Below are positions 30,798 through 54,822 of a stretch of 57,519 nucleotides of DNA, one piece after another (position 1 is the first letter of the stretch; the number at the start of each line of letters is the position of its first letter). This DNA comes from an uncultured Nitrospira sp. (GTDB lineage: Bacteria > Nitrospirota > Nitrospiria > Nitrospirales > Nitrospiraceae). The notes beneath the pieces were generated by a model, which worked only from the letters and a program-made list of their open reading frames with translations, searched no databases and was not told where the DNA came from. Both the position numbers and the translations under genes were made by a program. Where the stretch lies: positions 1-57,519 of the forward strand of contig CABVRW010000020.1 in assembly GCA_902500785.1 (NCBI GenBank), read 5' to 3'.

Positions 30798-31633
30798 AGA
30801 ACCTATCTCAAAATTGCTTGAGCAGCATGGTGATCGATGCCAGTTGCACCAAACCCCGAAAGTTGGTGGCGTAATATTCCCATCGCACCAGTAGCCGACG
30901 CTTCCATTGGAGACACGCAAAGAACCGCTCCACGAGCCAGCGGCGTTGGTAGCGCCGCAAGTGGCGACCATCTTGCGTCTTGAGTTTCCGCGTGGACCGG
31001 TGTGGCGCAATCATGTTGATGCCATCCTGCTTGCGGTCGTCATCCAGTCCGTCACTGTCGTAGGCGCGATCGCCGATGAGGGGTTCGGGTTTGGCCTCCA
31101 GCATGTAGAAGTTGAAACTGAGTTGCACCAACGTCACCTCATGATGATTCGCCGCATGTGTGCTCACGGAGAGCGGCAGCCCATGGCGATCCACAATCGC
31201 GAGAATCTTCACGCCTTTGCCCCGGCGGGTCAGCCCGATGCCGTCGCCCCCACCCTTGGCGGCGGCAAACGTCGCATCGATGAAGCTCTCGCGCTCATCG
31301 AGTGCGCCTTCCTCACGCAGCGTATTCGCGAGCTGTGTCAGGCTGCCTCGCAGCACCTCGCGTTCGCACCACTGTTGAAATCGACGATGCACCGTCTTGT
31401 AGTTGGGATAGCACTGCGGGAGCATGTGCCACGGTGCGCCGGTGTTCAGTATCCACAGGACGGCCTCCAAGATGGCCCGCGCCGGCACGGGCTTGCGGCC
31501 AGGACGGCTTTCCGGGATGTGTCCCTCAGGTAACTGTTTCCGAATGCGTTCCCATTGGTCATCGCGCAATCGCAGCATGCAGTCGCATTATCGGCACTTC
31601 GTTCCTCGACACAACTATTTTGAGATAGGTTCT
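30798..31633 (-). mobile_element. IS5-family insertion sequence
   Basis: An intact-looking element of about 836 bases with a single transposase gene. The two ends carry an 18-base perfect inverted match, CTAGAACCTATCTCAAAA (30796-30813) and its complement (31618-31635). The outermost CTAG or TA is probably the target duplication, which fits the preference of IS5 relatives for CTAG/TNA sites; the inverted repeat proper then starts GAACCTATC. The exact boundary within CTAG cannot be fixed from one copy. It sits between ahcY and the radical SAM gene and interrupts no recognisable gene. Confidence 0.9.
30808..31578 (-). CDS. IS5-family transposase
   Basis: DDE transposase of 256 residues that catalyses movement of the surrounding element. 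The N-terminal domain (LRLRDDQWERIRKQLP; LWILNTGAPWHMLP; RRFQQWCERE) is the DUF4096-type region of IS5 relatives. The catalytic core shows Asp in ESFIDATFAAAKGG, Asp in LIGDRAYDSDGL and Glu in the WLVERFFACLQWKRRL motif with the expected downstream R/K. It is one continuous frame with no frameshift, so the element may be active. The stop codon lies within the terminal repeat. Confidence 0.95.
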   Translation of the reverse strand: MLRLRDDQWERIRKQLPEGHIPESRPGRKPVPARAILEAVLWILNTGAPWHMLPQCYPNYKTVHRRFQQWCEREVLRGSLTQLANTLREEGALDERESFIDATFAAAKGGGDGIGLTRRGKGVKILAIVDRHGLPLSVSTHAANHHEVTLVQLSFNFYMLEAKPEPLIGDRAYDSDGLDDDRKQDGINMIAPHRSTRKLKTQDGRHLRRYQRRWLVERFFACLQWKRRLLVRWEYYATNFRGLVQLASITMLLKQF

Positions 31634-33773: not shown

Positions 33774-34646
33774 CTAGCGACCTAGCGCCGCCTTCACAGC
33801 ATGACCGATTTCGGCGGGATTCTTCACCACTCGAACACCAGCGGCTTCGAGAGCCTTCATTTTCTCCGTCGCCGTGCCCTTGCCACCGGAGATAATGGCG
33901 CCCGCATGGCCCATACGACGCCCCGGCGGTGCCGTGATGCCGGCGATAAAACTGATCACCGGCTTTTTGACGTGTTTCTGAATATATTCGGCCGCCTTCT
34001 CTTCCGCGTCGCCACCGATCTCTCCTATCATGACAACCGCCTGGGTTTCAGGATCCTTCTCGAACAACGGCAAGACATCCACAAAACCCGTACCGTTGAC
34101 GGGATCACCGCCGATGCCCACACAGGTGGTTTCTCCCAGACCCAATGTCGAGAGCTGATGAACCGCTTCATAGGTCAAGGTGCCGCTGCGTGATACGACG
34201 CCGACCACCCCGCGCTTATGGATGAACCCCGGCATGATGCCGATCTTGGCTTCATCGACCGTGATGACGCCAGGGCAATTGGGCCCGATCAATCGAACAT
34301 CGCGGCCATGGAGAGCCCGTTTGACCTTCACCATATCGTTCACGGGAATGCCTTCCGTGATGCAAATAATCAGTTTGACGCCTGCATCAGCGGCTTCCAG
34401 GATCGCATCCGCGCAAAACGGTGGTGGCACAAAAATCAGAGAGGTATCGCAGTCAGTTTTCTTCACGGCGTCGGCCACGGTGTTGAACACCGGAATGCCT
34501 TCGACTTCTTGACCGGCCTTTCCCGGCGTCACCCCCGCGACCACCTTCGTACCGTAAGCCTTGCACTGCGTCGCGTGGAAAGAGCCTTCTTTCCCCGTGA
34601 TTCCTTGGACTACCACCCGCGTATTCTTATTGACGAGAATGCTCAC
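33774..34646 (-). CDS. sucD: succinyl-CoA ligase, alpha subunit
   Basis: Catalytic subunit of succinyl-CoA synthetase, here expected to form succinyl-CoA in the reductive TCA cycle. The 290-residue protein binds CoA at its N-terminus ([20 protein letters not shown]), carries the [18 protein letters not shown] stretch and the phosphohistidine loop [14 protein letters not shown] near residue 247. It starts 11 bases after sucC ends. Last gene of the rTCA block, followed by a strong terminator. Confidence 0.97.
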
Positions 34647-34657
34647 GGTCTTCTCCT

Positions 34658-35836
34658 TTACGCCGCCTTGCCGGTCAGCTTCACAATTTTCTGCGCCGCT
34701 TCCCAGAGATCGTCGGCCACCTCCAACGTGAGGCCGGACGCCGCCAATAGCTTGCGGCCTTCATCTGCATTCGTGCCTTGGAGACGCACCACTAACGGCA
34801 CCGTAATTTTCACTTCCTTGGCCGCTTCAATCACGCCATGCGCGATCCGCTCGCATCGCACGATGCCACCGAAAATGTTGATGAAAATACCTTTGACGTT
34901 CGGATCTTTCAGCAGAATCCGAAAACCGGCCGCCACCGTCTCTTTTGTTGCCCCGCCGCCTACGTCCAGGAAGTTTGCCGGCTCGCTGCCCGCGAGTTTA
35001 ATCACATCCATAGTAGCCATCGCGAGGCCGGCGCCGTTCACCATGCAACCAATGTTGCCGTCAAGTTTCACATAATTGAGATTGTTCGCTGTCGCTTCAA
35101 TTTCAAGCGGGTCTTCTTCGTTGAGATCCCGCATTTTCTGAACATCTTCATGCTTGAAGATCCCATTGTCATCAAACGACACCTTGCCGTCCAATGCGAC
35201 CAAGGTTTTTTCCTTAGTGATAATCAACGGATTGATTTCAACCAGCGCTGCATGTTTTTCCATAAACAGACGATAGAGATTGCCGAGCATCTGCACGAAT
35301 GGATTTATGACGGCCGCTTCCATTGCCTGAAGACCCAACGCAAAGGCCACGTTGCGCCCATTGTGCCCCTGAAACCCCACGGCGGGATCGATCGCTTCCT
35401 TGATGATCTTCTCCGGGGTCTTTTCAGCCACCTCTTCGATTTCCATACCGCCTTCGGTACTGGCGATAAACGTCGGCCAGCCGGTATCACGATCAACTAA
35501 AATGCTCAGATACAACTCTTTAGCAATGTTAGCCCCTTCTTCAAGGAGTAACCGATGGACCTTTCTTCCTTTCGGCCCGGTCTGGTGCGTAATCAGGGTC
35601 TTCCCGATCAACTCCTTGGCGAGTCCTGCGACAGCACCCTTGTCTTTTGTAATCTTCACGCCACCGGCCTTACCACGTCCGCCAGCATGAATCTGGGCCT
35701 TGACCACGAAAACCGAGGTGTTTAGCTCGTTGGCCCATGCGGTGGCTTCCTCGGGAGAAGTGATTTCCTTGCCTCGTGGCACCGGCACCCCGAACTTCGC
35801 AAACAATTGCTTGGCCTGAAACTCATGAACGTTCAT
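34658..35836 (-). CDS. sucC: succinyl-CoA ligase, beta subunit
   Basis: Nucleotide-binding ATP-grasp subunit of succinyl-CoA synthetase, 392 residues. It opens [20 protein letters not shown], with the [10 protein letters not shown] glycine loop, [20 protein letters not shown] for metal and nucleotide binding, and [12 protein letters not shown] in the C-terminal CoA-ligase domain. It precedes sucD by 11 bases and follows frdA by 84 bases; that gap holds only a small GAGC/GCTC hairpin. Confidence 0.97.
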
Positions 35837-35920: not shown

Positions 35921-37522
35921 TCAGCCCTTCGCGATACGCTCTGGCTCCTTGCGCGTATACGCAGGGAGTATCATCGGAGAAATGACGCCGCTGGAGTGAC
36001 CGTGTTTGTTCGCTTCTGCTCGGAATCGCTGCAGATGCTTGACCGTGAGTTTCCCTTGGTGCATTGATCCGGCGCGCGACGCGGCCGTCAGACCTGACCG
36101 TTTGCCGAACACCATTAGATCGAGCAATGAATTACCCATTAAACGATTTCGTCCATGCAACCCGCCTGAAGCTTCTCCGGCAACAAACAGATTCTTGACG
36201 TTGGTCTCTGAGTTTGCGTCGATCTTGACGCCGCCGTTCTGATAGTGCAGCGTCGGGTAAATAAGTACGGGGTCCTTGCTGATGTCGATGCCGAATCGTT
36301 CGAATTGCATCATCATGGCGGGAAAGTGCTTTTCTACCGTCCCTGGCCCATGCTCGGCATCAAGCAACGGCGTATCCAGCCAGACACCGACGCGGCCCGA
36401 CATCGTACGAATACCACGGCCTTCCTCACACTCACGAATGATGGAAGAGGAGACCACATCGCGGGTATCGAGCTCATTCACAAACCGCTCGCCCTTGGCG
36501 TTCACCAGGTGGCCGCCTTCTGATCTGATGCCTTCGGTGACCAGCGCCCCGATCAATTGTTCGGGGTAAACCGCGCCTGAGGGATGATACTGAAACGTAT
36601 CGATGTGGTCGAGCTTTGCACCCATCCGGTACGAGAGGCACAAACCGTCGCCGGTTGCGCCGTAGTGATTACTCGTGGGGAACCCCTGGATATGTAGTCG
36701 ACCGATACCACCGGTCGCAAGAATAACCGACTTGGCCGCCACAACGACATGCCGCTGATTGTCGAGATCCTTAAAAATGGCTCCGGTACAATGACCATTG
36801 TCGTCGCTGAGCAACTCAACTGCGGCGCAAAACTCAAGCAGCTGGATCTTTTGATTCAGGACTTCGTCCTTAAGCACGCGCATGATTTCGAGCCCGGTGT
36901 AATCCGAGCACGTCAGAAGACGTGGCTTTGAACTTCCGCCACCCTTCTTCACATGTAGATTCCCATCCGCTTGCCGATCGAACAGAACGCCCAGTTCAAT
37001 CAACCACTTCGCAATAGATGGTCCATCCTCGACCATGACTTTGAGTAATTCGTGGTCGTTCTGCATATGACCGCCCTTGAGCGTGTCCAGAAAATGCGTG
37101 ACTGGGGAGTCTTCAGGCGCGACGGAAATTTGCATCCCGCCCTGAGCCATCACGCTATTCGAGTCGCCAAGCCGCAGCTTTGTCGCAAGAATAACCTTCG
37201 CGCCGGTTCCATGAGCATGCAACGCTGCCGCGCAGCCGGCGCCGCCTCCACCGACTACCAGTACATCCGTCGTAAAGTGCGGGGTCAGATCGATACTTTC
37301 AGCAATTGGGCTATCGCCTTCCAGCAGCGCGGCAAGTTCGACGACCGTCTTGTCATTCGCATTCGGGCCAAATCGAATCGGACGATAGGCGCTGACGCGA
37401 TAATCAGGGTGGTGCTTGTGAATGAGTTGGTCGCGATCGGCGGGAGAAAACTTGGGGAGGGTCTGCTTGCGGCGAGCATCCCGCGTTTGGTGGACGATTT
37501 GTTGAAGTGCGTGAATATCCAT
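35921..37522 (-). CDS. frdA: fumarate reductase flavoprotein subunit (non-covalent FAD type)
   Basis: Reduces fumarate to succinate in the reductive TCA cycle. The 533-residue protein has the FAD Rossmann motif VLVVGGGGAGCAAALHA near residue 90, the active-site HPSGAVYPEQLIGALVTEG and RSEGGHLVN region, and the C-terminal HGRNRLMGNSLLDLMVFG. In membrane succinate dehydrogenases and fumarate reductases a histidine (SHTVAAEGG in E. coli FrdA) holds FAD covalently; here the site reads SNSVMAQGG, with Asn near residue 122, as in enzymes with non-covalent FAD such as L-aspartate oxidase. An N-terminal extension of about 80 residues precedes the FAD domain. No membrane-anchor gene is nearby. Confidence 0.9.
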   Translation of the reverse strand: MDIHALQQIVHQTRDARRKQTLPKFSPADRDQLIHKHHPDYRVSAYRPIRFGPNANDKTVVELAALLEGDSPIAESIDLTPHFTTDVLVVGGGGAGCAAALHAHGTGAKVILATKLRLGDSNSVMAQGGMQISVAPEDSPVTHFLDTLKGGHMQNDHELLKVMVEDGPSIAKWLIELGVLFDRQADGNLHVKKGGGSSKPRLLTCSDYTGLEIMRVLKDEVLNQKIQLLEFCAAVELLSDDNGHCTGAIFKDLDNQRHVVVAAKSVILATGGIGRLHIQGFPTSNHYGATGDGLCLSYRMGAKLDHIDTFQYHPSGAVYPEQLIGALVTEGIRSEGGHLVNAKGERFVNELDTRDVVSSSIIRECEEGRGIRTMSGRVGVWLDTPLLDAEHGPGTVEKHFPAMMMQFERFGIDISKDPVLIYPTLHYQNGGVKIDANSETNVKNLFVAGEASGGLHGRNRLMGNSLLDLMVFGKRSGLTAASRAGSMHQGKLTVKHLQRFRAEANKHGHSSGVISPMILPAYTRKEPERIAKG

Positions 37523-37543
37523 GATTTGCTTTCAGCACGGAGC

Positions 37544-37572
37544 GCGGTCTCGGAGCGTATCCGTCCGAGACC
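37544..37572 (-). other. intercistronic hairpin between frdB and frdA
   Basis: CGGTCTCGGA/TCCGAGACCG is a perfect ten-base-pair stem in the 68-base gap between frdB and frdA. No T-tract follows, so it is more likely an mRNA processing or stability element than a terminator. Confidence 0.5.
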
Positions 37573-37590
37573 GGCTGACGGCACAATGCG

Positions 37591-38301
37591 TTACTTCACT
37601 GTCGCGCAGTAATCGGCCAACTCCTGTTCGTTCATCGCGAGAACTTTGTTCCACTCATCGTTAAAGCTGCCGTCCTGAATCTCTTGGATACGAGCATCGA
37701 GCCCCTGCGGCTTCTCCGTGAAATGAGCACCCTGCGCTCGACTCACATAGAGAGCTACCAGGTTGGGCGCAATGTCCGCAATACAGACCGGGGTGCACAT
37801 TCCGCACATGACGCAGTCCATGAACATTTCGGACACGCTCTTGAAATCCCCGAACACCGCTTTCCATACCCCTTCGCGCACATCGATTTTCTGAGGGCAG
37901 GCTTCCGTACAGGCATTGCAATTCCGGCAGAGTGGTGCTTCCGGATAGAGATTGAAGAGGTCTTGTTTCGGATCCTTGAGCGACTGGATGTCATACAGGG
38001 CTTTCCGGGCTGGGAACGGAGGCATGATAGTGAAAGACATGCCGTCCTCTACTGCCATCTGGCAGGCCAGGCATGTTCGAACCTTCGGATCATCTTTGGT
38101 TCGATAGTAGGTGGCACAGGCACCGCAAAACCCCCCGAGACAGCCGGCTCCTCGCACCACCTCCTGCCCTGAATACCACAGGGCTTTGATCACGGTGATG
38201 CCTTCCGGCACTTCATACTTCTTGCCGGAAATTTCAATCGTCACCATTTTATGGCGTAGCACTTCCGGCTGATCGATCACGTTGGTATCTTCTTGTGCCA
38301 T
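37591..38301 (-). CDS. frdB: fumarate reductase iron-sulfur subunit
   Basis: Electron-transfer partner of FrdA, 236 residues. The N-terminal domain has a 2Fe-2S-type cysteine pattern (GAGCLGGFCGAC near residues 54-62, then RTCLAC near 77-80). The C-terminal domain has two ferredoxin-like motifs of CxxCxxCxxxC form, CRNCNACTEACP (125-136) and CVMCGMCTPVC (163-173). Classical FrdB/SdhB has a 3Fe-4S ligand pattern at the second site, so this protein probably holds two 4Fe-4S clusters. It is transcribed before frdA; no cytochrome b subunit is seen. A start at Met19 is possible. Confidence 0.87.
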   Translation of the reverse strand: MAQEDTNVIDQPEVLRHKMVTIEISGKKYEVPEGITVIKALWYSGQEVVRGAGCLGGFCGACATYYRTKDDPKVRTCLACQMAVEDGMSFTIMPPFPARKALYDIQSLKDPKQDLFNLYPEAPLCRNCNACTEACPQKIDVREGVWKAVFGDFKSVSEMFMDCVMCGMCTPVCIADIAPNLVALYVSRAQGAHFTEKPQGLDARIQEIQDGSFNDEWNKVLAMNEQELADYCATVK

Positions 38302-38385: not shown

Positions 38386-40629
<2,244 letters not shown>

Positions 40630-40641
40630 TTATGTGTCGTG

Positions 40642-42888
40642 TTAGTTCAGCGCGTTCAACGCTGAACCTGCCTTGAACCACGCGATCTGTTGCTCTGTGA
40701 TACTGTGGTTCGCCTGGATAGTGAGCGCCTTACCATCCGCTTTATGAATGGTCACTTGCACCGGCTTGCCGGGAGACAGATTGGCCAACCCCGTCACGCT
40801 GATGCGATCCTGCTGCTCGATCTTGTCGTAATCCTTCGGATCGCCGAAGGTCAACGCCAAGATCCCCTGCTTCTTCAAATTCGTCTCATGAATCCGAGCA
40901 AAACTCTTGGTAATAACGACCTTTACGTTCAAGAAGCGCGGAGACATCGCTGCATGCTCGCGACTGCTGCCTTCGCCGTAGTTCTCATCACCCACCACAA
41001 CGGAGCCAATGCCTTTGGCCTTGTAGTCGCGGGCAATTTGAGCGAGAGTGAGATTCGCTTCGCCCGTCAGCACATTCGTTCCCCTGCCGGGTTCTGAGGT
41101 AAAGGCACTGTTCGCACCCAAAAACATGTTGTCGCTGATCTTGTCGAGATGCCCACGGAACTTGAGCCAAGGACCGGCCGGTGAAATGTGATCGGTCGTG
41201 GTCTTGCCCTTGGTCTTGATGAGGAGCGGAAGCTTTTCGAAATCTTTACCGTCCCAGCGGGGAAACGGCTGTAACAACTGCAATCGTTCGCTGGTAGGAG
41301 GAATGTCGACCGTCAGCCCCTCGCCGTTTTCGGCCGGAGCGACAAACCCTTCCTCTCCCTTAGCAAATCCCTTGGCTGGCAACTCTTCGCCCACCGGCGG
41401 CTGAAGTTTGAACTCCTTCCCGTCGGCTCCCTTGAGCGTCTGATTCACCGGGTCAAATCTCAGATCTCCGGTAATGGCATACGCCGTCACGACCTCGGGA
41501 CTTGCCAGGAAGGACAACGTCTCACTGATGCCATCGTTCCGACCTGGGAAATTGCGGTTGAAGGAGCTGACGATTGAATCGGCCTTACCCTTCACACCAT
41601 CCGCCCGTTTCCACTGTCCGATACAGGGGCCGCAGGAATTCGAAAGGACCGTGCCACCGAGCTTTTCAAACGTATCCAAGAACCCATCGCGCTTCATGGT
41701 GTGATAAATACGCTCGGAGCCTGGCGACACGAGAAACGACGCCTTCGCCTTCAACCCAGCTTTCAACCCCTGCTCCGCGACATGGGCAGACCGACTGATA
41801 TCTTCATACGAAGAATTGGTGCAGCTACCGATAAGGGCCGCCTTCAACTCAACCGGATACCCCTTCGCCTTCGCTTCTGCCGCCAACTTGGAAATCGGCC
41901 TTGCGAGATCCGGCGTATGCGGGCCAACCACGTGCGGCTCCAGCATCGACAAGTCAAGCTCGACGATTTGATCGTAATATTTATCCGGCGACTGGTAGAC
42001 TTCAGGATCGGCGACGAGAAGATCCTTGTGCGATTGCGCGAAACTCGCCAAATCAGCCCGATCGGTGATGTTCATGTAGGCGACCATCTTCTGATCGAAA
42101 GGAAACACCGAAGTGGTAGCCCCAAGTTCCGCGCCCATGTTGCAGATCGTGCCCTTGCCTGTTGCGCTAATGGTTTCCGCGCCGGGGCCAAAATACTCGA
42201 CGATCTTGTTTGTGCCACCCTTCACCGTCAGCAGGCCGCACAGATAGAGAATCACATCCTTCGGAGAAGCCCAGCCGCTCAACTTCCCGGTCAAGCGCAC
42301 GCCGATTAATTTCGGATGGAGCACTTCCCACGGCAAACCCGCCATCACTTCGCCGGCGTCCGCGCCGCCGACGCCGATGGCCAGTCCTCCCAAACCCCCG
42401 CCGTTCGGCGTGTGTGAGTCCGTTCCAATTATCAAGCAGCCAGGGAATGCATAATTTTCCAAAACCACCTGGTGGATAATCCCGGCTCCGGGCTTCCAGA
42501 ATCCAATGCCGTACTTCCTCGCGGCAGAGGCGAGAAAGTTATACACTTCCCGATTCTCGTCCATCGCGCGGAGCAGGTCCTTCTCGGAGCCCATTTCAGC
42601 TCGAATGAGGTGATCGCAATGAATCGTGCTCGGTACGGCCGCTTTTTTCTTATTAGCCTGCATAAACTGCAGCATGGCCATTTGGGCCGTGGCGTCCTGC
42701 ATGGCTACACGATCCGGCCGAAGCGCTAACATGGCCTTGCCTCGCTCCCAAGTCTGCGAGTCAAAGTTGTCTGCGTGAGAGACCAAGATCTTGTCGGCTA
42801 GCGTCAGGCCGCGGCCGAATCTCTTTCTGGCCTTGGCAAACACATCCGGCATCTTGGCATACAGTTTCTTGGCGAGATCCATGGACAT
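40642..42888 (-). CDS. acn: aconitate hydratase (mitochondrial-type)
   Basis: 4Fe-4S enzyme that isomerises citrate and isocitrate. The 748-residue protein matches the shorter, mitochondrial-type aconitase. Visible are the cluster cysteine region GSCTNSSYEDISRSA and SNSCGPCIGQW (CxxC), the substrate-binding IGTDSHTPNGGGLGGLAIGVGGADA, and the swivel domain with VVVGDENYGEGSSREHAAMSP. It sits between aclA and icd, so both faces of the citrate-isocitrate step are encoded together. Confidence 0.96.
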   Translation of the reverse strand: MSMDLAKKLYAKMPDVFAKARKRFGRGLTLADKILVSHADNFDSQTWERGKAMLALRPDRVAMQDATAQMAMLQFMQANKKKAAVPSTIHCDHLIRAEMGSEKDLLRAMDENREVYNFLASAARKYGIGFWKPGAGIIHQVVLENYAFPGCLIIGTDSHTPNGGGLGGLAIGVGGADAGEVMAGLPWEVLHPKLIGVRLTGKLSGWASPKDVILYLCGLLTVKGGTNKIVEYFGPGAETISATGKGTICNMGAELGATTSVFPFDQKMVAYMNITDRADLASFAQSHKDLLVADPEVYQSPDKYYDQIVELDLSMLEPHVVGPHTPDLARPISKLAAEAKAKGYPVELKAALIGSCTNSSYEDISRSAHVAEQGLKAGLKAKASFLVSPGSERIYHTMKRDGFLDTFEKLGGTVLSNSCGPCIGQWKRADGVKGKADSIVSSFNRNFPGRNDGISETLSFLASPEVVTAYAITGDLRFDPVNQTLKGADGKEFKLQPPVGEELPAKGFAKGEEGFVAPAENGEGLTVDIPPTSERLQLLQPFPRWDGKDFEKLPLLIKTKGKTTTDHISPAGPWLKFRGHLDKISDNMFLGANSAFTSEPGRGTNVLTGEANLTLAQIARDYKAKGIGSVVVGDENYGEGSSREHAAMSPRFLNVKVVITKSFARIHETNLKKQGILALTFGDPKDYDKIEQQDRISVTGLANLSPGKPVQVTIHKADGKALTIQANHSITEQQIAWFKAGSALNALN

Positions 42889-43001: not shown

Positions 43002-44822
43002 TTACTTCAGCGGCGGAACTTCCCGCCTCTTGGGTGCCGCGTAGTTCACAAGGTAATCAAACAAACGGATCAGGCGGCTATCCTGGCGTTTTTGATCCAC
43101 CCAGTGACCGATTAATCCAATTGTCCTCGAGAGAATGAAGAATCCGTTTAAGCTATCGACAGGGAAACCAATATCGACCAGTACGGCCGCCATCGTCCCA
43201 TCGACGTTCAGAATCAGATTGTCCTTTTTCACGGAGGTAACTTTCTCCACCTCAAGCGCGAAGTCCAAACAAGGAGTCTTAATCTTCAGACTCTTCACAT
43301 AGCCGACTAACTCTTTTACTCGCTTGTCAGGATTGCGCAGACTCTTCACGCGGTGGCCAATACCCGGTACCGGTCCATGGTTTTTCTTCATGTACGCCAA
43401 GAATTCGTCGACGGACATCTTATTATCCACGGCATATTTGAAGAAGCGGCCGGCATCAGTAACGGCACCGCCAAAACGTGGTCCAATCATAATCATGCCT
43501 GCTGCAACCGACTGCGACAACCCGATCCCGGCACAGGCGGCGAGAATTGTCGCGTAGGCGCCGCTGACGCATGGACCGTGATCAGCTGAGAGCATCATAA
43601 TCCGCTTGATGATCTCCGCCTCCTGCTTGGAGATCAGCCGCTTGTCCCACAACAGCCCGATCACATGAGGAATTTCATAGCCCTTGTTGATGAGCTCAGA
43701 AGCTGGATAGCCGTCGTAGCAGGGTTCGTCACCGCGGTCATCGCTGATGGTGGTGCGGATCAGCGGCGCGACCATGACCTCGTCGGCCTTCATGGCCTCC
43801 TCGATGGTCTTGGGCAACTTGGGCAACGTCGCCGGCTCGACCGGCTCCTTCACTTGGCCGGACTTCAAGAGATCTTGATAGGTTTCTTTAATCGCAGGGC
43901 CAAGTGCGCCAAAAGTGGGTGGCACGAGCGCGCCTGATTTCTTGAGCGCATCGGACTTGGATCGCGCCGATCCTTCCCCCTTCATGCCCTCCTTGGCTCC
44001 GGCATGACCGAACTTCATCCCCTTCGGCAAACTTTCCTGACAAAAACCAGAGACCACAGCAATCAACTTCACCCGTCGCTTCTTCGCGCCATACCATTCC
44101 GCAGCCCGCTCTTCGAGATCACCACCCATCTCGCCGACGATGACGACCGCCTTCGTTTGCGGGTCATTTTCGAACATTTCAAGATAGCTGACGTAATCAG
44201 TTCCGGGATAGGCATCGCCGCCGATACCGATGGCCGTCGTGATCCCGTCGGCAAACTGTGAGCAGATCCAGATAATTTCGTTTGAGAGACCTCCCGACTT
44301 AGTGATCACACCAAACGATCCTTCACGGTAGAGCTTGGAGAGGACGAGGTTGTCGAACGCACCGCCGATTACACCTAACCGGCAGGCACCGGCTGAAATG
44401 ATACCGATGGACGACGGACCATTAAAAACCTTACCCAACTTGCGCGCATGAGCGCCAAGCACCTTGGCATCCTTTTCCGGCACGCCCTCGGTGATCATCG
44501 AGACCACCTTAATGTGCGAATCGTCAAGCGCCTCCATGCCGCCCTTCATCGCGCGGTCGGCACCGATGTAGACGAGGCTGGTGTTCAGCGTTGGGTGATG
44601 TTTGGTGGCTTCGGTAATGGACTTATAGATTGGAATGGCGATGAGGCCGCTGCCGTATGGGATCTCATTGGTCTTACCGGCATCGGGCGGATATACGAAC
44701 GCCTCGACGTTTAGCGGACGCTTAATGAGATAACAGAACTCGGCCATGCGGCGGGCAGCGTTGACACCGGCTTGACCACCCTGGATCACCACGCGGGTGT
44801 CTTTGTTTGCCAGAATACTCAT
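43002..44822 (-). CDS. aclA: ATP-citrate lyase, large (alpha) subunit
   Basis: Cleaves citrate to acetyl-CoA and oxaloacetate with ATP and CoA, the hallmark reaction of the reductive TCA cycle. The 606-residue subunit combines a succinyl-CoA-synthetase alpha-like CoA-binding half (TRVVIQGGQAGVNAARRM; phosphohistidine loop KFGHAGAKEG with His273) and a citrate-synthase-like C-terminal half (ADHGPCVSGAYATILAACAG; GIGHRVKSLRNPDKRV). It follows aclB by 41 bases. The two-subunit arrangement resembles that of Chlorobium. Confidence 0.97.
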   Translation of the reverse strand: MSILANKDTRVVIQGGQAGVNAARRMAEFCYLIKRPLNVEAFVYPPDAGKTNEIPYGSGLIAIPIYKSITEATKHHPTLNTSLVYIGADRAMKGGMEALDDSHIKVVSMITEGVPEKDAKVLGAHARKLGKVFNGPSSIGIISAGACRLGVIGGAFDNLVLSKLYREGSFGVITKSGGLSNEIIWICSQFADGITTAIGIGGDAYPGTDYVSYLEMFENDPQTKAVVIVGEMGGDLEERAAEWYGAKKRRVKLIAVVSGFCQESLPKGMKFGHAGAKEGMKGEGSARSKSDALKKSGALVPPTFGALGPAIKETYQDLLKSGQVKEPVEPATLPKLPKTIEEAMKADEVMVAPLIRTTISDDRGDEPCYDGYPASELINKGYEIPHVIGLLWDKRLISKQEAEIIKRIMMLSADHGPCVSGAYATILAACAGIGLSQSVAAGMIMIGPRFGGAVTDAGRFFKYAVDNKMSVDEFLAYMKKNHGPVPGIGHRVKSLRNPDKRVKELVGYVKSLKIKTPCLDFALEVEKVTSVKKDNLILNVDGTMAAVLVDIGFPVDSLNGFFILSRTIGLIGHWVDQKRQDSRLIRLFDYLVNYAAPKRREVPPLK

Positions 44823-44863: not shown

Positions 44864-46063
44864 CTATTTTACTTGGAGCGCCTTGTCGACAATGTCGGTG
44901 AGTGGTGTGTTGCGGTCGAAGACATTGATGTCAAAGCCTTCGTCTTTCAGGGCGCGCATCGCATCAAGGCCCTCTTTCTCACGCGGTCCCCCGCGACGGA
45001 CCCAAATCTTGACGTTCCTCAACTTGCCCTCGGACTTGGCCTTCCGAAAGCCGTTGATGATCCCGCCGAACGTCTTTTTGACATCGGTGAAATTTGCAAT
45101 CGCACCACCAACAATGATGTTTTTGATTCCCGGCAGAGAACACACTTTTTCCGTGAGGACTTCGACGGCCCAATCCGGTGGATCGCCGGAATATTCGGCA
45201 TAGTTGGCTAACTTGCCGCCACGCGCGACGACCGCGTCCGAATAGTACACGCTGGCGCCACCGCCCGCCGGCAACATGGCTGTATCGCCACCAGGAATTT
45301 CGATGAACTTCACCGAGCCTTTAATCTTGCTGTCGACCGCCATGACTTCAAGTTCTTGCCTGGAATAGGCGCGGCCGAATTCTGCGGCAAACGCGAAGTT
45401 CCAGTCCGGATGTCTGAATTTGGCATCGCCGTCGAGCAGTGTCACGGCATCAAGCGCAACCAGCTCCTCATCGGCGGCACGAACGACGACCGGATTCACC
45501 TCGAGATATTGTGCATCTTCACTGTCGAAGCAGGCAAACATTTTTCCTGCGAACGCAGCCATCTTCTTCGCTAGAGGCCCAGTAAATCCGGCCTCTTTAG
45601 CCAGTTTCTCGAGCGATTCCTGAGAAGGAGCCTGCCCGATATCAAGACACAAACGCTTGACACGTTCCCAATTCGATTCGACTTCGATCCCGCCGCAGTT
45701 CGCAACCAGGACCTCACTGCCTTCGCGCGTTGATTTCACGGCGCAATAATATTCTTCTGTGTGAGCGATCATTTCAGAGACAATGACCTGCGTGACGGTG
45801 ATGCTGCCGACTTGTCGCCCGATCATCTCCTTGGTAGCAGCTTCCGCAGCCTTGAAGTCCAAATCAACCTTGACCAACCCAAGCTTAAACCTCGACCCGA
45901 GCGCCTCGTGCGCCTTCGCAACAAGCTTGGAATTTTTCAACCATTCATTAGCCTGACCCAGCTTGGTCAACTCATCAACGGAGGTCACGACCACATAATT
46001 GGGGACGTTGATTCCCCACTTCTTCATCAGCCCCATCCCGGGACCTTCCAGCACTTTCGCCAT
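44864..46063 (-). CDS. aclB: ATP-citrate lyase, small (beta) subunit
   Basis: ATP-grasp subunit of ATP-citrate lyase, 399 residues, related to succinyl-CoA synthetase beta and to the N-terminal part of animal ATP-citrate lyase. Features include the N-terminal grasp fold (GPGMGLMKKWGINVPNYVVV), YLEVNPVVVRAADEELVALD for nucleotide and metal binding, and the C-terminal MLPAGGGASVYYSDAVV and GGAIANFTDVKKTFGGIING. AAGGAG nine bases upstream supports the start. It is the first gene of the rTCA block; a weak promoter lies at 46110-46138. Confidence 0.96.
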   Translation of the reverse strand: MAKVLEGPGMGLMKKWGINVPNYVVVTSVDELTKLGQANEWLKNSKLVAKAHEALGSRFKLGLVKVDLDFKAAEAATKEMIGRQVGSITVTQVIVSEMIAHTEEYYCAVKSTREGSEVLVANCGGIEVESNWERVKRLCLDIGQAPSQESLEKLAKEAGFTGPLAKKMAAFAGKMFACFDSEDAQYLEVNPVVVRAADEELVALDAVTLLDGDAKFRHPDWNFAFAAEFGRAYSRQELEVMAVDSKIKGSVKFIEIPGGDTAMLPAGGGASVYYSDAVVARGGKLANYAEYSGDPPDWAVEVLTEKVCSLPGIKNIIVGGAIANFTDVKKTFGGIINGFRKAKSEGKLRNVKIWVRRGGPREKEGLDAMRALKDEGFDINVFDRNTPLTDIVDKALQVK

Positions 46064-50664: not shown

Positions 50665-52011
50665 CTAAATACTACGCATAAAATGCCCCATGGCTTCATG
50701 GTCAGCGGCTGATGCACCCATGACCTGTGACATCGCAACGTTTGTCGACTTCTTCCCTGTCAAACCAGACTCGACTTCATCCACAATCAATTCCACCGGC
50801 ATCGACTGGCCACCATAAACTCTTGGACCACCGATGATTTTTGCGTTCGAGAAACCGTAAATGGCTGTGGCCACTTCTTTGGCCAGCCATCCAACGTAGT
50901 TGAATTCCGGGACGACAATCAACTTGGCTTTTCCACAGAGTTTGCGCAACTCCTGAGTTGGGAATGGACGAAGCGATCGAATCTTGATCAAGCCAATCTT
51001 GATGCCCTTCTCTGCACAAATGCGCACTGCCTCACGCGACTGAGCAGCTGCACTACCCGAAGCGATAATGACCGCCTCGGCATCATCCACGTTCTCAGCC
51101 GTGAGCAAGCCACCCATGTACTGGTTGATGTATTTACGAGAACGCTCGACGGCCGCCCAGACCTCCTGTTGCCACACCGCGTGGATGTTGTAGGCCATAA
51201 AATTTGACTTCTGAACCGGGGCGTCACGGGAGAGTCTGGCCGGAGGATTCTCAGCATCAAGGACGGGTACCGCTCCTCGCCATGGCTCCCGAGGAGGGAG
51301 CTTCATCCCACGATCTTGCATGCGGACATAGCCTCTGGCGTGGGTAACGAAAAATCCATCGCAACACACACCGACAGGTAGAGTGACATCATTCTTCTCA
51401 CTAATGACAAACCCGGCCAACGTGAAGTCATACATGTCTTGCTGATTCTCAGCATGGAATACAATCATCCCACAATTGAGCAGATACGATACTTCAATAT
51501 TATCGGGCTGAATCGCCAGCGGCGCATTCACCACACGACAGGTAAACATGGCCACCACCGGTAGCCGGTGCCCTGGCCAAGAAGCAATCCCTTCCAGCCC
51601 TCTCAAAGTCCCCGGACCGGCGGTCGCAGTATAACAACGAACTCCCGCTCGAGACCCACCGGCAATAGCCGCCATGACGCCGACTTCTTCTTCTCCGCGG
51701 TAATATTCTTTTACATAGCCTTCACCGTACAACACACCCACTAGCTGCATGGTTTCGCTTTGTGGGGTAATGGGATAGGCAATGGCAAGATCGACGTTCG
51801 ACCGGCGGATCGCTTCTTTTGCAGCCTCGCTGCCCGTTATAAACTCCTTGGTACGAGGGGCTTCCAGAAACATATATTCAGGTGTTACGACCTTCTGCTG
51901 CTTTGCATCCGCGTGCGGATCCTTCTTCGCCTCAACCTTAGGAGCAGACACGCTCGTGATAGGATCGCCCTGAGGATTGGTTTTTTGTTGGGGCTCCAAT
52001 GCTTCGCTCAT
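50665..52011 (-). CDS. 2-oxoacid:ferredoxin oxidoreductase, alpha subunit
   Basis: Subunit of the thiamine-dependent enzyme that carboxylates acetyl-CoA or succinyl-CoA with reduced ferredoxin, a key step in the reductive TCA cycle. The 448-residue protein has a charged N-terminal extension of about 55 residues, then the alpha-subunit core: AIAYPITPQSETMQ, YRGEEEVGVMAAIAGGSRAG, TATAGPGTLRGLEGIA and a C-terminal transketolase-like domain (LIKIRSLRPFPTQELRKL). It is the last gene of a five-gene operon. Sequence alone does not show whether the complex uses pyruvate or 2-oxoglutarate. Confidence 0.92.
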   Translation of the reverse strand: MSEALEPQQKTNPQGDPITSVSAPKVEAKKDPHADAKQQKVVTPEYMFLEAPRTKEFITGSEAAKEAIRRSNVDLAIAYPITPQSETMQLVGVLYGEGYVKEYYRGEEEVGVMAAIAGGSRAGVRCYTATAGPGTLRGLEGIASWPGHRLPVVAMFTCRVVNAPLAIQPDNIEVSYLLNCGMIVFHAENQQDMYDFTLAGFVISEKNDVTLPVGVCCDGFFVTHARGYVRMQDRGMKLPPREPWRGAVPVLDAENPPARLSRDAPVQKSNFMAYNIHAVWQQEVWAAVERSRKYINQYMGGLLTAENVDDAEAVIIASGSAAAQSREAVRICAEKGIKIGLIKIRSLRPFPTQELRKLCGKAKLIVVPEFNYVGWLAKEVATAIYGFSNAKIIGGPRVYGGQSMPVELIVDEVESGLTGKKSTNVAMSQVMGASAADHEAMGHFMRSI

Positions 52012-52050
52012 TATTGCACCTCTTGACTGTATCGCCTTAGCCTAAAACTC

Positions 52051-52836
52051 CTAACCTTCTCGCTTCATCTGCTCCGCTGAGTGGCCAAATGTAGCCGCGC
52101 TGCCAACGCCTGCAGCAGAGGGCATAAAGGTCATAGGATTTGTATGCGTCTTCCCGTTATGGACCTTGGACTGAGTTCCGGTGAACCGCACATTCTCGCC
52201 ATTGTCCGGCAACTTAATGCCCATTTCTTCGCGAACCTTCTTAAAGATCTGTGCGGTCTTCTTCAGCTTCAACGTGTCCGAGTCTCGAATCGTAAGCATG
52301 GCATCTTCATGCCCTTGCTCAGCGCAGATGGCCATGGTGCAGCAATTGGTCCCCGCACGAATCATTTTCAGCGTGAGATTGGCATAGTGACAGTGAACGC
52401 CGATGAAAACACAGGCTTCAATTTTATTTCCCCAAATCGTGAGATTGGGATGGTTCGGATTGATGACCTCTTCGGGATCGATTTTTGGATACTTGGGTCG
52501 ATAGTCCGGCATGGGAATAATCATCACATCGGGAATCTGCGCAGCAATTTCAAGAACTGCTTTCGCCTTTTCGACGGCATGGTTGTTCCAAGCCCACAAG
52601 ACGAGAGGCCCCGGGAAGATTGTCGCATTGGGGCTCGTCAGCATTTTCCGAGCCATCTCCTCAATCACTGTATCTTCATTGGGCTCCAGCAATCCATAAT
52701 ATAGCCCCTGCCCAGGGTCAGGCAGCGCCACTCCCATCTGAGCCGCTGACGGTGGATGGAACCCCGCTGGTCCCGGCACGATAATCCGCTCTCTCGTATC
52801 TTGCGTCGTTCCCACGCCCGTTCCCCTTTCGTCCAA
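52051..52836 (-). CDS. 2-oxoacid:ferredoxin oxidoreductase, epsilon-type subunit (CODH beta-like)
   Basis: A 261-residue protein of the kind found as the fifth subunit of oxidoreductases in Hydrogenobacter- and Nitrospira-type operons and sometimes annotated as carbon monoxide dehydrogenase beta-like. Recognisable stretches are GLLEPNEDTVIEEMARKML, ATIFPGPLVLWAWNNHA, ACVFIGVHCHYANLTLKMIR and CAEQGHEDAMLTIRDSDTLK. It contains Cys and His residues that could bind a metal, but no standard cluster motif. It starts directly after the delta-subunit stop. Its exact role in the complex is not known to me. Confidence 0.82.
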   Translation of the reverse strand: MDERGTGVGTTQDTRERIIVPGPAGFHPPSAAQMGVALPDPGQGLYYGLLEPNEDTVIEEMARKMLTSPNATIFPGPLVLWAWNNHAVEKAKAVLEIAAQIPDVMIIPMPDYRPKYPKIDPEEVINPNHPNLTIWGNKIEACVFIGVHCHYANLTLKMIRAGTNCCTMAICAEQGHEDAMLTIRDSDTLKLKKTAQIFKKVREEMGIKLPDNGENVRFTGTQSKVHNGKTHTNPMTFMPSAAGVGSAATFGHSAEQMKREG

Positions 52837-53160
52837 TTACCCAACTACAGGGCTGACCAATGCCGCCGTCGTGCTTTTTTCCCCATAGGTAATGTTGTCG
52901 GTCAATGCCGCCACCGGCAGCTGGTCGATCATAATCATTTTAATGGCATTATTCTTCGCCATATTGTCGCAGACCCATACGCATTGGGCGCATCCCTTGC
53001 ACCGATCCACTGCCACGTAGGCCGAACCGTACTTAAACCCTTTGTCCTTGCCCATCTCATCGCTATACAGGATGGTATTGGCTTCTGGGCAATATTGCGT
53101 GCAGAGCTTGCAACTCTTCGCGGCACAGATCTCAACGCTGATATCGGCTACGAGATACAT
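52837..53160 (-). CDS. 2-oxoacid:ferredoxin oxidoreductase, delta subunit (ferredoxin-like)
   Basis: Two-cluster ferredoxin-type subunit of 107 residues that passes electrons between the catalytic subunits and external ferredoxin. Motifs are CAAKSCKLCTQYCPEA (first cluster) and CKGCAQCVWVCDNMAK (second cluster). The second motif lacks the usual proline after the last cysteine. It lies between the gamma and epsilon genes; its stop abuts the epsilon start. Confidence 0.9.
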   Translation of the reverse strand: MYLVADISVEICAAKSCKLCTQYCPEANTILYSDEMGKDKGFKYGSAYVAVDRCKGCAQCVWVCDNMAKNNAIKMIMIDQLPVAALTDNITYGEKSTTAALVSPVVG

Positions 53161-53185
53161 GAGAACTCCTTGTCCTTGACCGGGA

Positions 53186-53905
53186 TTACGCGGTGACGCT
53201 CTCCACCGCTTCCGAACGCTTCACGGATGGGGCCGCCCATCCATTGTCCACCGCATAATTCCAGCCAGCTCGAATAACTGCCACATTCTTCTCGATCAAC
53301 TCTTGCTTCTTTTTGAATTTCCTCTCGACGACGCTGTCCAACGCGGCAGTGCCACCAGAGACGACGAAACCCTTTCCGAGGAACCGATCTTTCACGGATT
53401 GCTCCAACGCCTCGACCGAGGTCAACCCCGTGATAGCCCCAATGCAGCCCATCAAGGCCATGTTCGTGGCGAGGTCCATTCCCGCGACCTCAAGAGAAAG
53501 CTTGGTAGCCGGGAAATAGTAAAGCTTCGCATGCCGCTCTTCGAGCTCACGCGCCTGGTCTCGATGAAGCTTCATCGGGCCATCATTGTTGATCAAGGCA
53601 ATCCCGTTTTCCTTCAAGCCAAAATAGAACGGCATCGTATACGACTTGCCGTGCGTGATGACCTGCGGGTGGAAGATAATGATGATATGCGGGAAGGTGA
53701 TCTCGCCGATTTCGTATATGGGCTCGTCCGACACTCTGACATAACTCTCGACGGGCGCCATACGCTTTTCTGATCCGTAAAAAGGAACGATCGTACTTTC
53801 TCCTCCGGCATGGATGACTGCCGTACTCAGAATGTGCGAGCCGGTCACAACCCCCTGGCCGCCGACACCCGCCATACGAATATTGAACCGTGTCGCCATA
53901 CTCAA
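53186..53905 (-). CDS. 2-oxoacid:ferredoxin oxidoreductase, gamma subunit
   Basis: Gamma domain of the 2-oxoacid oxidoreductase family, 239 residues, opening with the hallmark GVGGQGVVTGSHILSTAVIH and YGSEKRMAPVESYVRVSD. The core matches the 180-residue gamma family; a C-terminal extension of about 50 residues (FKKKQELIEKNVAVIRAGWN) is extra. It lies 17 bases downstream of the beta gene and 25 upstream of delta. Confidence 0.91.
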   Translation of the reverse strand: MSMATRFNIRMAGVGGQGVVTGSHILSTAVIHAGGESTIVPFYGSEKRMAPVESYVRVSDEPIYEIGEITFPHIIIIFHPQVITHGKSYTMPFYFGLKENGIALINNDGPMKLHRDQARELEERHAKLYYFPATKLSLEVAGMDLATNMALMGCIGAITGLTSVEALEQSVKDRFLGKGFVVSGGTAALDSVVERKFKKKQELIEKNVAVIRAGWNYAVDNGWAAPSVKRSEAVESVTA

Positions 53906-53922
53906 TCCTCCTTAAACGTTGC

Positions 53923-54822
53923 TCAGGCCTTGGGGAGCCCGGGAGCGGGAGCAGCCGGCTTCGGGAGAAATTCCTTGTAGCCATACCGTTCCGTGAGAAA
54001 TTGCTTCGCTTCGTCGGTAATGTATTCGGAGAACTGATAGCGATCGTTTTCAACGTTCTTCGCATCTTCCATGACCTTATCGGTCGGGATGGCATACTCA
54101 ATGTTACATGACGTATAGGCCTGAATGTATGTTGATCCCACCTCTCTGGCGATCAACACGGCCTTCTTAATGACGCTCTCTACACGGCGAGGATTGTTCG
54201 GCACCACCGTCGCGACGTAGGCACAACCGGCAACCTTCGCCATCTGCAGCATATCCATCTTCTCAAACTTTTTCCCTAGCGGAGCCATCTTGAGTACGGC
54301 GCCGCGATTCGTCATGCCGCTCTCCTGCCCACCGGTGTTCCCATAGACTTCATTGTCCAGCATGATCGTCGTGAACCGTTCCTTGCGGAACCAGGAGTGG
54401 AGGACCTGCTGAAATCCGATATCAGCCGTGCCGCCGTCACCGGCCATGACGACCACATCCTTCGGCTTATCACCGAATCGAAGGCGCAGACCACGGGACA
54501 ACCCGCTCGCCACACCATTCTGGTCACCATAATTACCGTAGACAAAGGGAATGGCGGCTTGCGAAATCGCGAGGCGTCCGCAGCCGGCTGTCCCAACGGT
54601 GATGGTATCCTCTGGATTGGGGAATGCAATCATGGCGAGTCTGATGAAGAGGGTCATCGCACAACCAGCACACATGGGGTGCTCTTCCAGCACTTCTTTG
54701 AACGAACCCATTTGCGATACGGAAACTTTTTTTCCGAAGGGACCATGTTCAACCATGTCCCGATATTCTTTCGGCATGAACTTTTCAAAGCCACTTGAAA
54801 ACTTGACGTAATCAAGGCTCAT
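53923..54822 (-). CDS. 2-oxoacid:ferredoxin oxidoreductase, beta subunit
   Basis: Thiamine-diphosphate-binding subunit, 299 residues. It has the cluster-binding CAGCAM near residue 52, AGCGR near 81, and the TPP motif MAGDGGTADIGFQQVLHSWF followed by LDNEVYGNTGGQESG. It is the first gene of the operon beta-gamma-delta-epsilon-alpha, behind a TATAAT box at 54954-54959, and supplies the ferredoxin-dependent carboxylation that the rTCA block at 33.8-46.1 kb lacks. Confidence 0.93.
   Translation of the reverse strand: MSLDYVKFSSGFEKFMPKEYRDMVEHGPFGKKVSVSQMGSFKEVLEEHPMCAGCAMTLFIRLAMIAFPNPEDTITVGTAGCGRLAISQAAIPFVYGNYGDQNGVASGLSRGLRLRFGDKPKDVVVMAGDGGTADIGFQQVLHSWFRKERFTTIMLDNEVYGNTGGQESGMTNRGAVLKMAPLGKKFEKMDMLQMAKVAGCAYVATVVPNNPRRVESVIKKAVLIAREVGSTYIQAYTSCNIEYAIPTDKVMEDAKNVENDRYQFSEYITDEAKQFLTERYGYKEFLPKPAAPAPGLPKA

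Follow-up and report, generated by a model that had tools for sequence, protein, structure and literature searches.

The reductive TCA (rTCA) operon of Nitrospira raises the question of which enzyme converts fumarate to succinate and where it obtains its electrons. In the window (the whole stretch of 57,519 nucleotides analysed, which is contig C20 of the 3.9 Mb genome G000 of an uncultured Nitrospira sp.), frdB and frdA lie in the operon aclA-aclB-acn-idh-frdB-frdA-sucC-sucD (Table 1). The gaps between its genes are 24 to 113 bases, that between sucC and sucD being 11. All 80 Nitrospira loci retrieved keep this order within the reach of their contigs, except that idh was undetected in one locus and aclB out of its usual place in another. 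Hydropathy analysis of the operon found no membrane-type gene, and the sole marginal segment was in aclB. A 2-oxoacid:ferredoxin oxidoreductase is encoded a few kb upstream on the same strand by genes for its POR_N and TPP-binding subunits (window 50665-54822), and an IS4/5-type transposase gene (window 30808-31578) lies just past the 3' end of the operon and a neighbouring B12-radical SAM gene.

Table 1. Genes of the rTCA operon in the window, minus strand, from 46063 down to 33774.
Gene	Position	Strand	Product	Remarks
aclA	44864..46063	-	ATP-citrate lyase citrate-binding / ATP-grasp subunit	Pfam PF16114 Citrate_bind
aclB	43002..44822	-	ATP-citrate lyase subunit, CoA-ligase and citrate synthase domains	Pfam Citrate_synt, Ligase_CoA; conserved order
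acn	40642..42888	-	aconitase	TIGR01340, 1062 bits
idh	38386..40617	-	monomeric NADP isocitrate dehydrogenase	TIGR00178, 1325 bits
frdB	37591..38301	-	iron-sulfur subunit	236 aa; no CCG domain
frdA	35921..37522	-	fumarate reductase flavoprotein subunit	533 aa
sucC	34658..35836	-	succinyl-CoA synthetase beta subunit, next cycle step	NF001913, 567 bits
sucD	33774..34646	-	succinyl-CoA synthetase alpha subunit	NF004230, 473 bits

The first-pass annotation had claimed that FrdA carries SNSVMAQGG in place of the covalent-FAD histidine motif. Alignment bore this out: the motif begins at residue 121, and Asn122 is the partner of the covalent-FAD histidine of E. coli FrdA, whose motif is actually SHTVAAQGG and not SHTVAAEGG as had been written. 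Asn122 is invariant in the alignment of the window FrdA with 71 Nitrospira orthologues, and asparagine also occupies the FAD site in 13 representatives spanning Nitrospirota families and in the FrdA homologues of Cupriavidus, Paraburkholderia, Pseudoroseomonas, and Ilyobacter, so the residue is not there by chance. FrdA therefore lacks the histidine that marks a complex II flavoprotein, and its flavin is predicted to be bound non-covalently. The active-site residues for fumarate-succinate chemistry (H313, E330, R354, H426, and R460) are present in all 13 representatives. FrdA also has a conserved N-terminal extension of ~83 residues, and a Pfam search did not find in it the C-terminal domain PF02910, which is present in the SdhA of the same genome. 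None of the NCBIfam models passed its cut-off for FrdA, the top one being TfrA with 371 of 718 bits. FrdA Gly194 aligns with Glu121 of E. coli NadB, a substrate-site residue. Structure prediction from 20-row alignments gave a mean pLDDT of 39 for FrdB and 43 for FrdA, and these models were unusable.

FrdB shares 97% identity with its counterpart in Candidatus Nitrospira defluvii. The protein contains a 2Fe-2S pattern (C54/C59/C62/C77) and two complete CxxCxxCxxxC 4Fe-4S patterns (C125-C128-C131-C135 and C163-C166-C169-C173). It matches the Fer2_4 and 4Fe-4S dicluster models, and the SdhB domain Fer2_3 is below cut-off (E 0.074). Domain and pattern searches of FrdB found neither PF02754 nor a CCG pattern. 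As judged from their sequences, FrdB and FrdA are a distinct subfamily, set off by the N-terminal extension of FrdA and the absence of PF02910; the window pair has the features by which we delimited it, namely the extension and asparagine of FrdA, and the 2Fe-2S and two 4Fe-4S motifs of FrdB.

The same genome encodes ordinary relatives of these proteins on other contigs. Its canonical SdhA (contig C1, L084 8514-10169) reads SHSVAAQGG, with histidine at the FAD site, and a NadB-like protein (contig C19) reads SNSMYAQGG, with asparagine at the flavin site. An SdhB-type protein (contig C33, L088 8250-9224) and a stand-alone SdhE/HdrB-like protein with two CCG domains (contig C28, L328 572-1495) are encoded apart from SdhA, and Sdh_cyt gave one sub-threshold match in the genome. 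The SdhB-type protein likewise has two CxxCxxCxxxC motifs, which suggests that the ordinary complex II may be a type-E enzyme. Two earlier arguments for a soluble enzyme hold as observations but are not diagnostic on their own. The two motifs are indeed present in FrdB, but they do not separate soluble from membrane enzymes, since the SdhB-type protein has both; no anchor gene lies in the operon, but a missing neighbour says little when the parts of the ordinary complex II are themselves scattered over three contigs.

When the 395 Nitrospirota genomes sampled were searched by alignment, FrdB turned up in 185. Among 28 genomes examined more closely, 24 have FrdB, all of them with a close FrdA, and frdA adjoins frdB wherever both are on one contig. 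In most families of the class, the pair lies within the same rTCA block; Nitrospirota families are given here as f-numbers. Several families have frdB in tandem with a more divergent frdB' ahead of frdA (L170, L171, L173, L180, L181, L182, and L319); Nitrospira has one frdB. In Leptospirillum-like genomes, a gene for a PsiE-like predicted membrane protein lies between a citryl-CoA lyase-like gene and frdB (L172 9759-10367, L183 7328-7909, and L188 9919-10515), taxon and enzyme being named here by BLAST similarity. The f22 gene between citryl-CoA lyase and frdB was considered as a further subunit and rejected, its match being a weak PsiE-like one.

Genes that share an operon with homologous frdBA point to the electron donor. 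The plasmid collection yielded eight records with FrdB and a full-length FrdA of the subfamily. In seven of seven proteobacterial plasmid records, nuoF directly follows frdA (frdB-frdA-nuoF), with a gap of ~20 bases in the two records measured; the gene after nuoF on the Cupriavidus plasmid resembles, judged from its sequence, a C4-dicarboxylate transporter. The eighth record, from Ilyobacter, has the order hdrBCA-mvhD-flx-frdB-frdA. Within Nitrospirota, f14 has frdB'-frdB-frdA-sucC-sucD-flxCBA, with a FlxA-like protein containing FAD- and NAD-binding domains. The rTCA copy of f19 reads frdB-frdA-sucC-sucD-nuoF, based on one genome (G006) with sucC-sucD-nuoF on one contig and another (G025) in which an exact overlap of 76 bases links the contig with frdB-frdA-sucC-sucD to the one with nuoF. 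An extra frdBA copy of f19 is found in an Ilyobacter-like hdrA-flxCBA-frdB-frdA operon (L176, L318, and L320), with hdrC and hdrB also in L176. Every donor module found sharing an operon with homologous frdBA is thus predicted to bind NAD(P)H. The Nitrospira operon itself has no NAD(P)H-oxidising gene, and a related nuoF lies at another locus beside mdh.

With the plasmid NuoF as query, the window genome gave two matches: the NuoF gene of complex I (contig C2) and a lone one of 441 aa (contig C5, L195 6784-8109). The order on C5 is mdh, a membrane protein gene, nuoF, a gene for a 2Fe-2S ferredoxin of 118 aa, and an ErpA-like gene. The linkage of mdh and nuoF is kept in f1, f2, f3, f5, f6, f7, f9, and f10; the genes between them in four families were considered as fumarase and rejected, being sigma-54 activators. 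A tree of 44 rows placed the stand-alone NuoFs in one clade (100/100), apart from the NuoFs of complex I and formate dehydrogenase. This clade includes the NuoFs linked to frdBA on plasmids, the sucCD-linked NuoF of f19, and that of f22, which adjoins purine genes and not rTCA genes; the frdBA-linked NuoFs are long branches and sister to the f19 NuoF (98/96). At the 4Fe-4S site, the aligned stand-alone NuoFs read SCGQCPPC, whereas those of complex I read SCGKCSPC or SCGWCTPC. NuoFs of the same clade also occur in genomes without FrdAB, namely those of f4, where the link to mdh is missing, those of f15, and one of f21. The presence of the two does not match one to one, and co-occurrence alone is therefore not used as proof. 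In f15 and f21 (L248-L251), the NuoF adjoins MvhD/HdrA-like genes, which suggests another soluble NADH-linked complex. Since the clade includes these and the f4 NuoFs, the protein may be a soluble diaphorase with possibly more than one partner.

On balance, it is probable that a soluble FrdAB with non-covalent FAD performs the conversion of fumarate to succinate in the rTCA cycle of Nitrospira, with NADH, through the stand-alone NuoF, as its likeliest donor. The product of frdB-frdA would catalyse this step of the cycle, and the NuoF encoded beside malate dehydrogenase would oxidise NADH. Electrons would pass from NADH to the FMN of NuoF, then to its 4Fe-4S cluster and into FrdB, whose two 4Fe-4S clusters and 2Fe-2S cluster would relay them to the FAD of FrdA and to fumarate, so that the genes of a putative FrdA-FrdB-NuoF NADH:fumarate reductase would be split over two loci. 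We infer the solubility, the FrdAB-NuoF complex, the direction, and the donor from genes and sequences. Against this reading, frdBA and nuoF are at separate loci in Nitrospira, and f14 has Flx instead. The NuoFs of the clade in genomes without FrdAB, the purine-gene neighbours of the f22 NuoF, the long branches of the frdBA-linked NuoFs, the energy lost with NADH compared with quinol (PMC10521678), and a published proposal that ties the lone NuoF to complex I (PMC6606698) also speak against it. The first-pass annotation proposed a soluble fumarate reductase of the rTCA cycle with a donor other than menaquinol; this finds support at the genomic level in the placement of the pair in an ATP-citrate lyase operon, the separate sdhA, sdhB, and nadB genes, and the predicted NAD(P)H modules beside the homologues. 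NADH, ferredoxin, or a thiol had been named as donors; NADH now appears the best supported, through NuoF, FlxABC, and Hdr-Flx beside the homologues, and a thiol is disfavoured, as FrdB has no CCG domain.

Transcription data from N. moscoviensis fit the FrdAB-NuoF reading. NITMOv2_0695 encodes a lone flavoprotein whose annotation is SdhA or NadB; it is transcribed far above the complex II cluster or the canonical NadB, the complex II cluster being below the median, and among the complex I-type genes of that study the lone nuoF NITMOv2_4064 has the highest transcription (PMC6606698). By position (948 and 945 bases per locus tag), the former appears to correspond to frdA in locus L061, and the latter to the nuoF at 3.84 Mb. 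The same study proposed that the lone NuoF may serve the 2M complex I, where we propose FrdAB as its partner, and left open how Nitrospira reduces ferredoxin (PMC6606698). In a flux model of N. moscoviensis, quinol reduces fumarate through succinate dehydrogenase (PMC8407350), and NADH as the donor of a fumarate reductase has been described as wasting energy relative to quinol (PMC10521678).

Other readings differ in the donor. FrdAB may receive its electrons straight from reduced ferredoxin, or from the 2Fe-2S ferredoxin encoded next to nuoF, and have no stable association with NuoF; the wealth of iron-sulfur clusters in FrdB, the ferredoxin gene that follows nuoF, and the need of the rTCA cycle for ferredoxin at other steps are consistent with this. 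We consider it unlikely, as all donor modules in the same operon as homologous frdBA bind NAD(P)H by prediction and low-potential ferredoxin is expensive for a nitrite oxidiser. It is very unlikely that FrdAB-NuoF bifurcates the electrons of NADH to fumarate and to ferredoxin: the FrdBA homologues of Ilyobacter and f19 have HdrABC-Flx genes beside them, and earlier work suggested a ferredoxin link in Pseudoclostridium thermosuccinogenes (PMC7282089) and in tubeworm symbionts (PMC6315080), but the Nitrospira NuoF has no additional ferredoxin-like domains, and neither an HdrA nor a NuoE gene adjoins frdBA or the lone nuoF.

Further readings concern the identity of the enzyme itself. FrdAB might recruit an HdrB/SdhE-like CCG subunit from elsewhere and act either with thiols, as a thiol:fumarate reductase, or with quinol, as a peripheral type-E enzyme, to which the two-CCG protein on contig C28, the TfrA model as the best NCBIfam match of FrdA, and the scattering of complex II genes would be favourable. 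This is decidedly unlikely, because FrdB lacks the CCG domain, the C28 protein fits the ordinary SdhA/SdhB equally, and no CCG gene stands next to frdBA in the rTCA operons labelled. The reading to which we give the least weight takes the flavoprotein as an L-aspartate oxidase or as an enzyme that oxidises succinate in the oxidative TCA cycle. NadB too has asparagine at the flavin site, and the annotation in N. moscoviensis alternates between SdhA and NadB (PMC6606698); on the other side stand Gly194 at the Glu121 position, the separate NadB and SdhA genes of the genome, and the partnership with FrdB at a locus beside ATP-citrate lyase and sucCD. Comparison with TfrAB and L-aspartate oxidase, as the first-pass annotation had suggested, set FrdA apart from both: membership of TfrAB was rejected on the absent CCG domain of FrdB and an assignment as L-aspartate oxidase on the glycine and the separate NadB gene.

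If an NADH-dependent FrdAB-NuoF operates in Nitrospira, the reverse-electron-transport cost of CO2 fixation would change, and fumarate reduction would be practically irreversible even with an oxidised quinone pool. The energy accounting of CO2 fixation in common nitrite-oxidising Nitrospira would be affected by a donor that is NADH and not the membrane. NITMOv2_0695 and NITMOv2_4064, highly transcribed genes without an explanation, would gain one joint function. Should bifurcation occur instead, an aerobic nitrifier would cover some of the low-potential ferredoxin demand of its rTCA cycle through fumarate reduction. Soluble NADH-linked or Flx-Hdr-linked fumarate reductases are already known as a kind; in the fraction of the literature searched, we found no description of the FrdBA-NuoF form of the Nitrospira rTCA operon.

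Compared with complex II (SdhABCD / FrdABCD), the window pair shares the FAD_binding_2 catalytic domain and the active-site residues, and differs in FrdA by the missing covalent-FAD histidine and PF02910, and in FrdB by a 4Fe-4S in place of the 3Fe-4S pattern, and a sub-threshold Fer2_3; no anchor gene adjoins the pair. The likeness to TfrAB of methanogens lies in the top score of the TfrA model on FrdA, although this score reaches about half of the cut-off and the thiol domain of TfrB has no counterpart in the window FrdB. The fumarate reductase of Hydrogenobacter has five subunits encoded by scattered genes. As cited in two later papers, FrdABCDE of Hydrogenobacter thermophilus is a soluble NADH-dependent enzyme (Miura et al. 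2008, cited in PMC12743299, PMC10521678); by description, the Nitrospira enzyme would resemble it in solubility, NADH as donor, and fumarate reduction in the rTCA cycle. Published examples of a Flx-Hdr link are the FrdAB of Pseudoclostridium thermosuccinogenes (PMC7282089) and the tfrAB genes that accompany flxABCD-hdrABC in tubeworm symbionts (PMC6315080). By their descriptions, these are of the operon type of Ilyobacter and f19, both of which have FrdBA homologous to that of the window, with 50% identity for the Ilyobacter FrdA; flx and hdr genes are absent from the window operon. The FrdA proteins of Cupriavidus, Paraburkholderia, Caballeronia, and Pseudoroseomonas plasmids are 46-48% identical to the window FrdA over ~95%, extension included. 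Their frdB-frdA-nuoF operons, of putative function, differ in that nuoF is adjacent and not distant and that no rTCA genes stand beside them, and their NuoF belongs to the same clade as the lone NuoF of Nitrospira.
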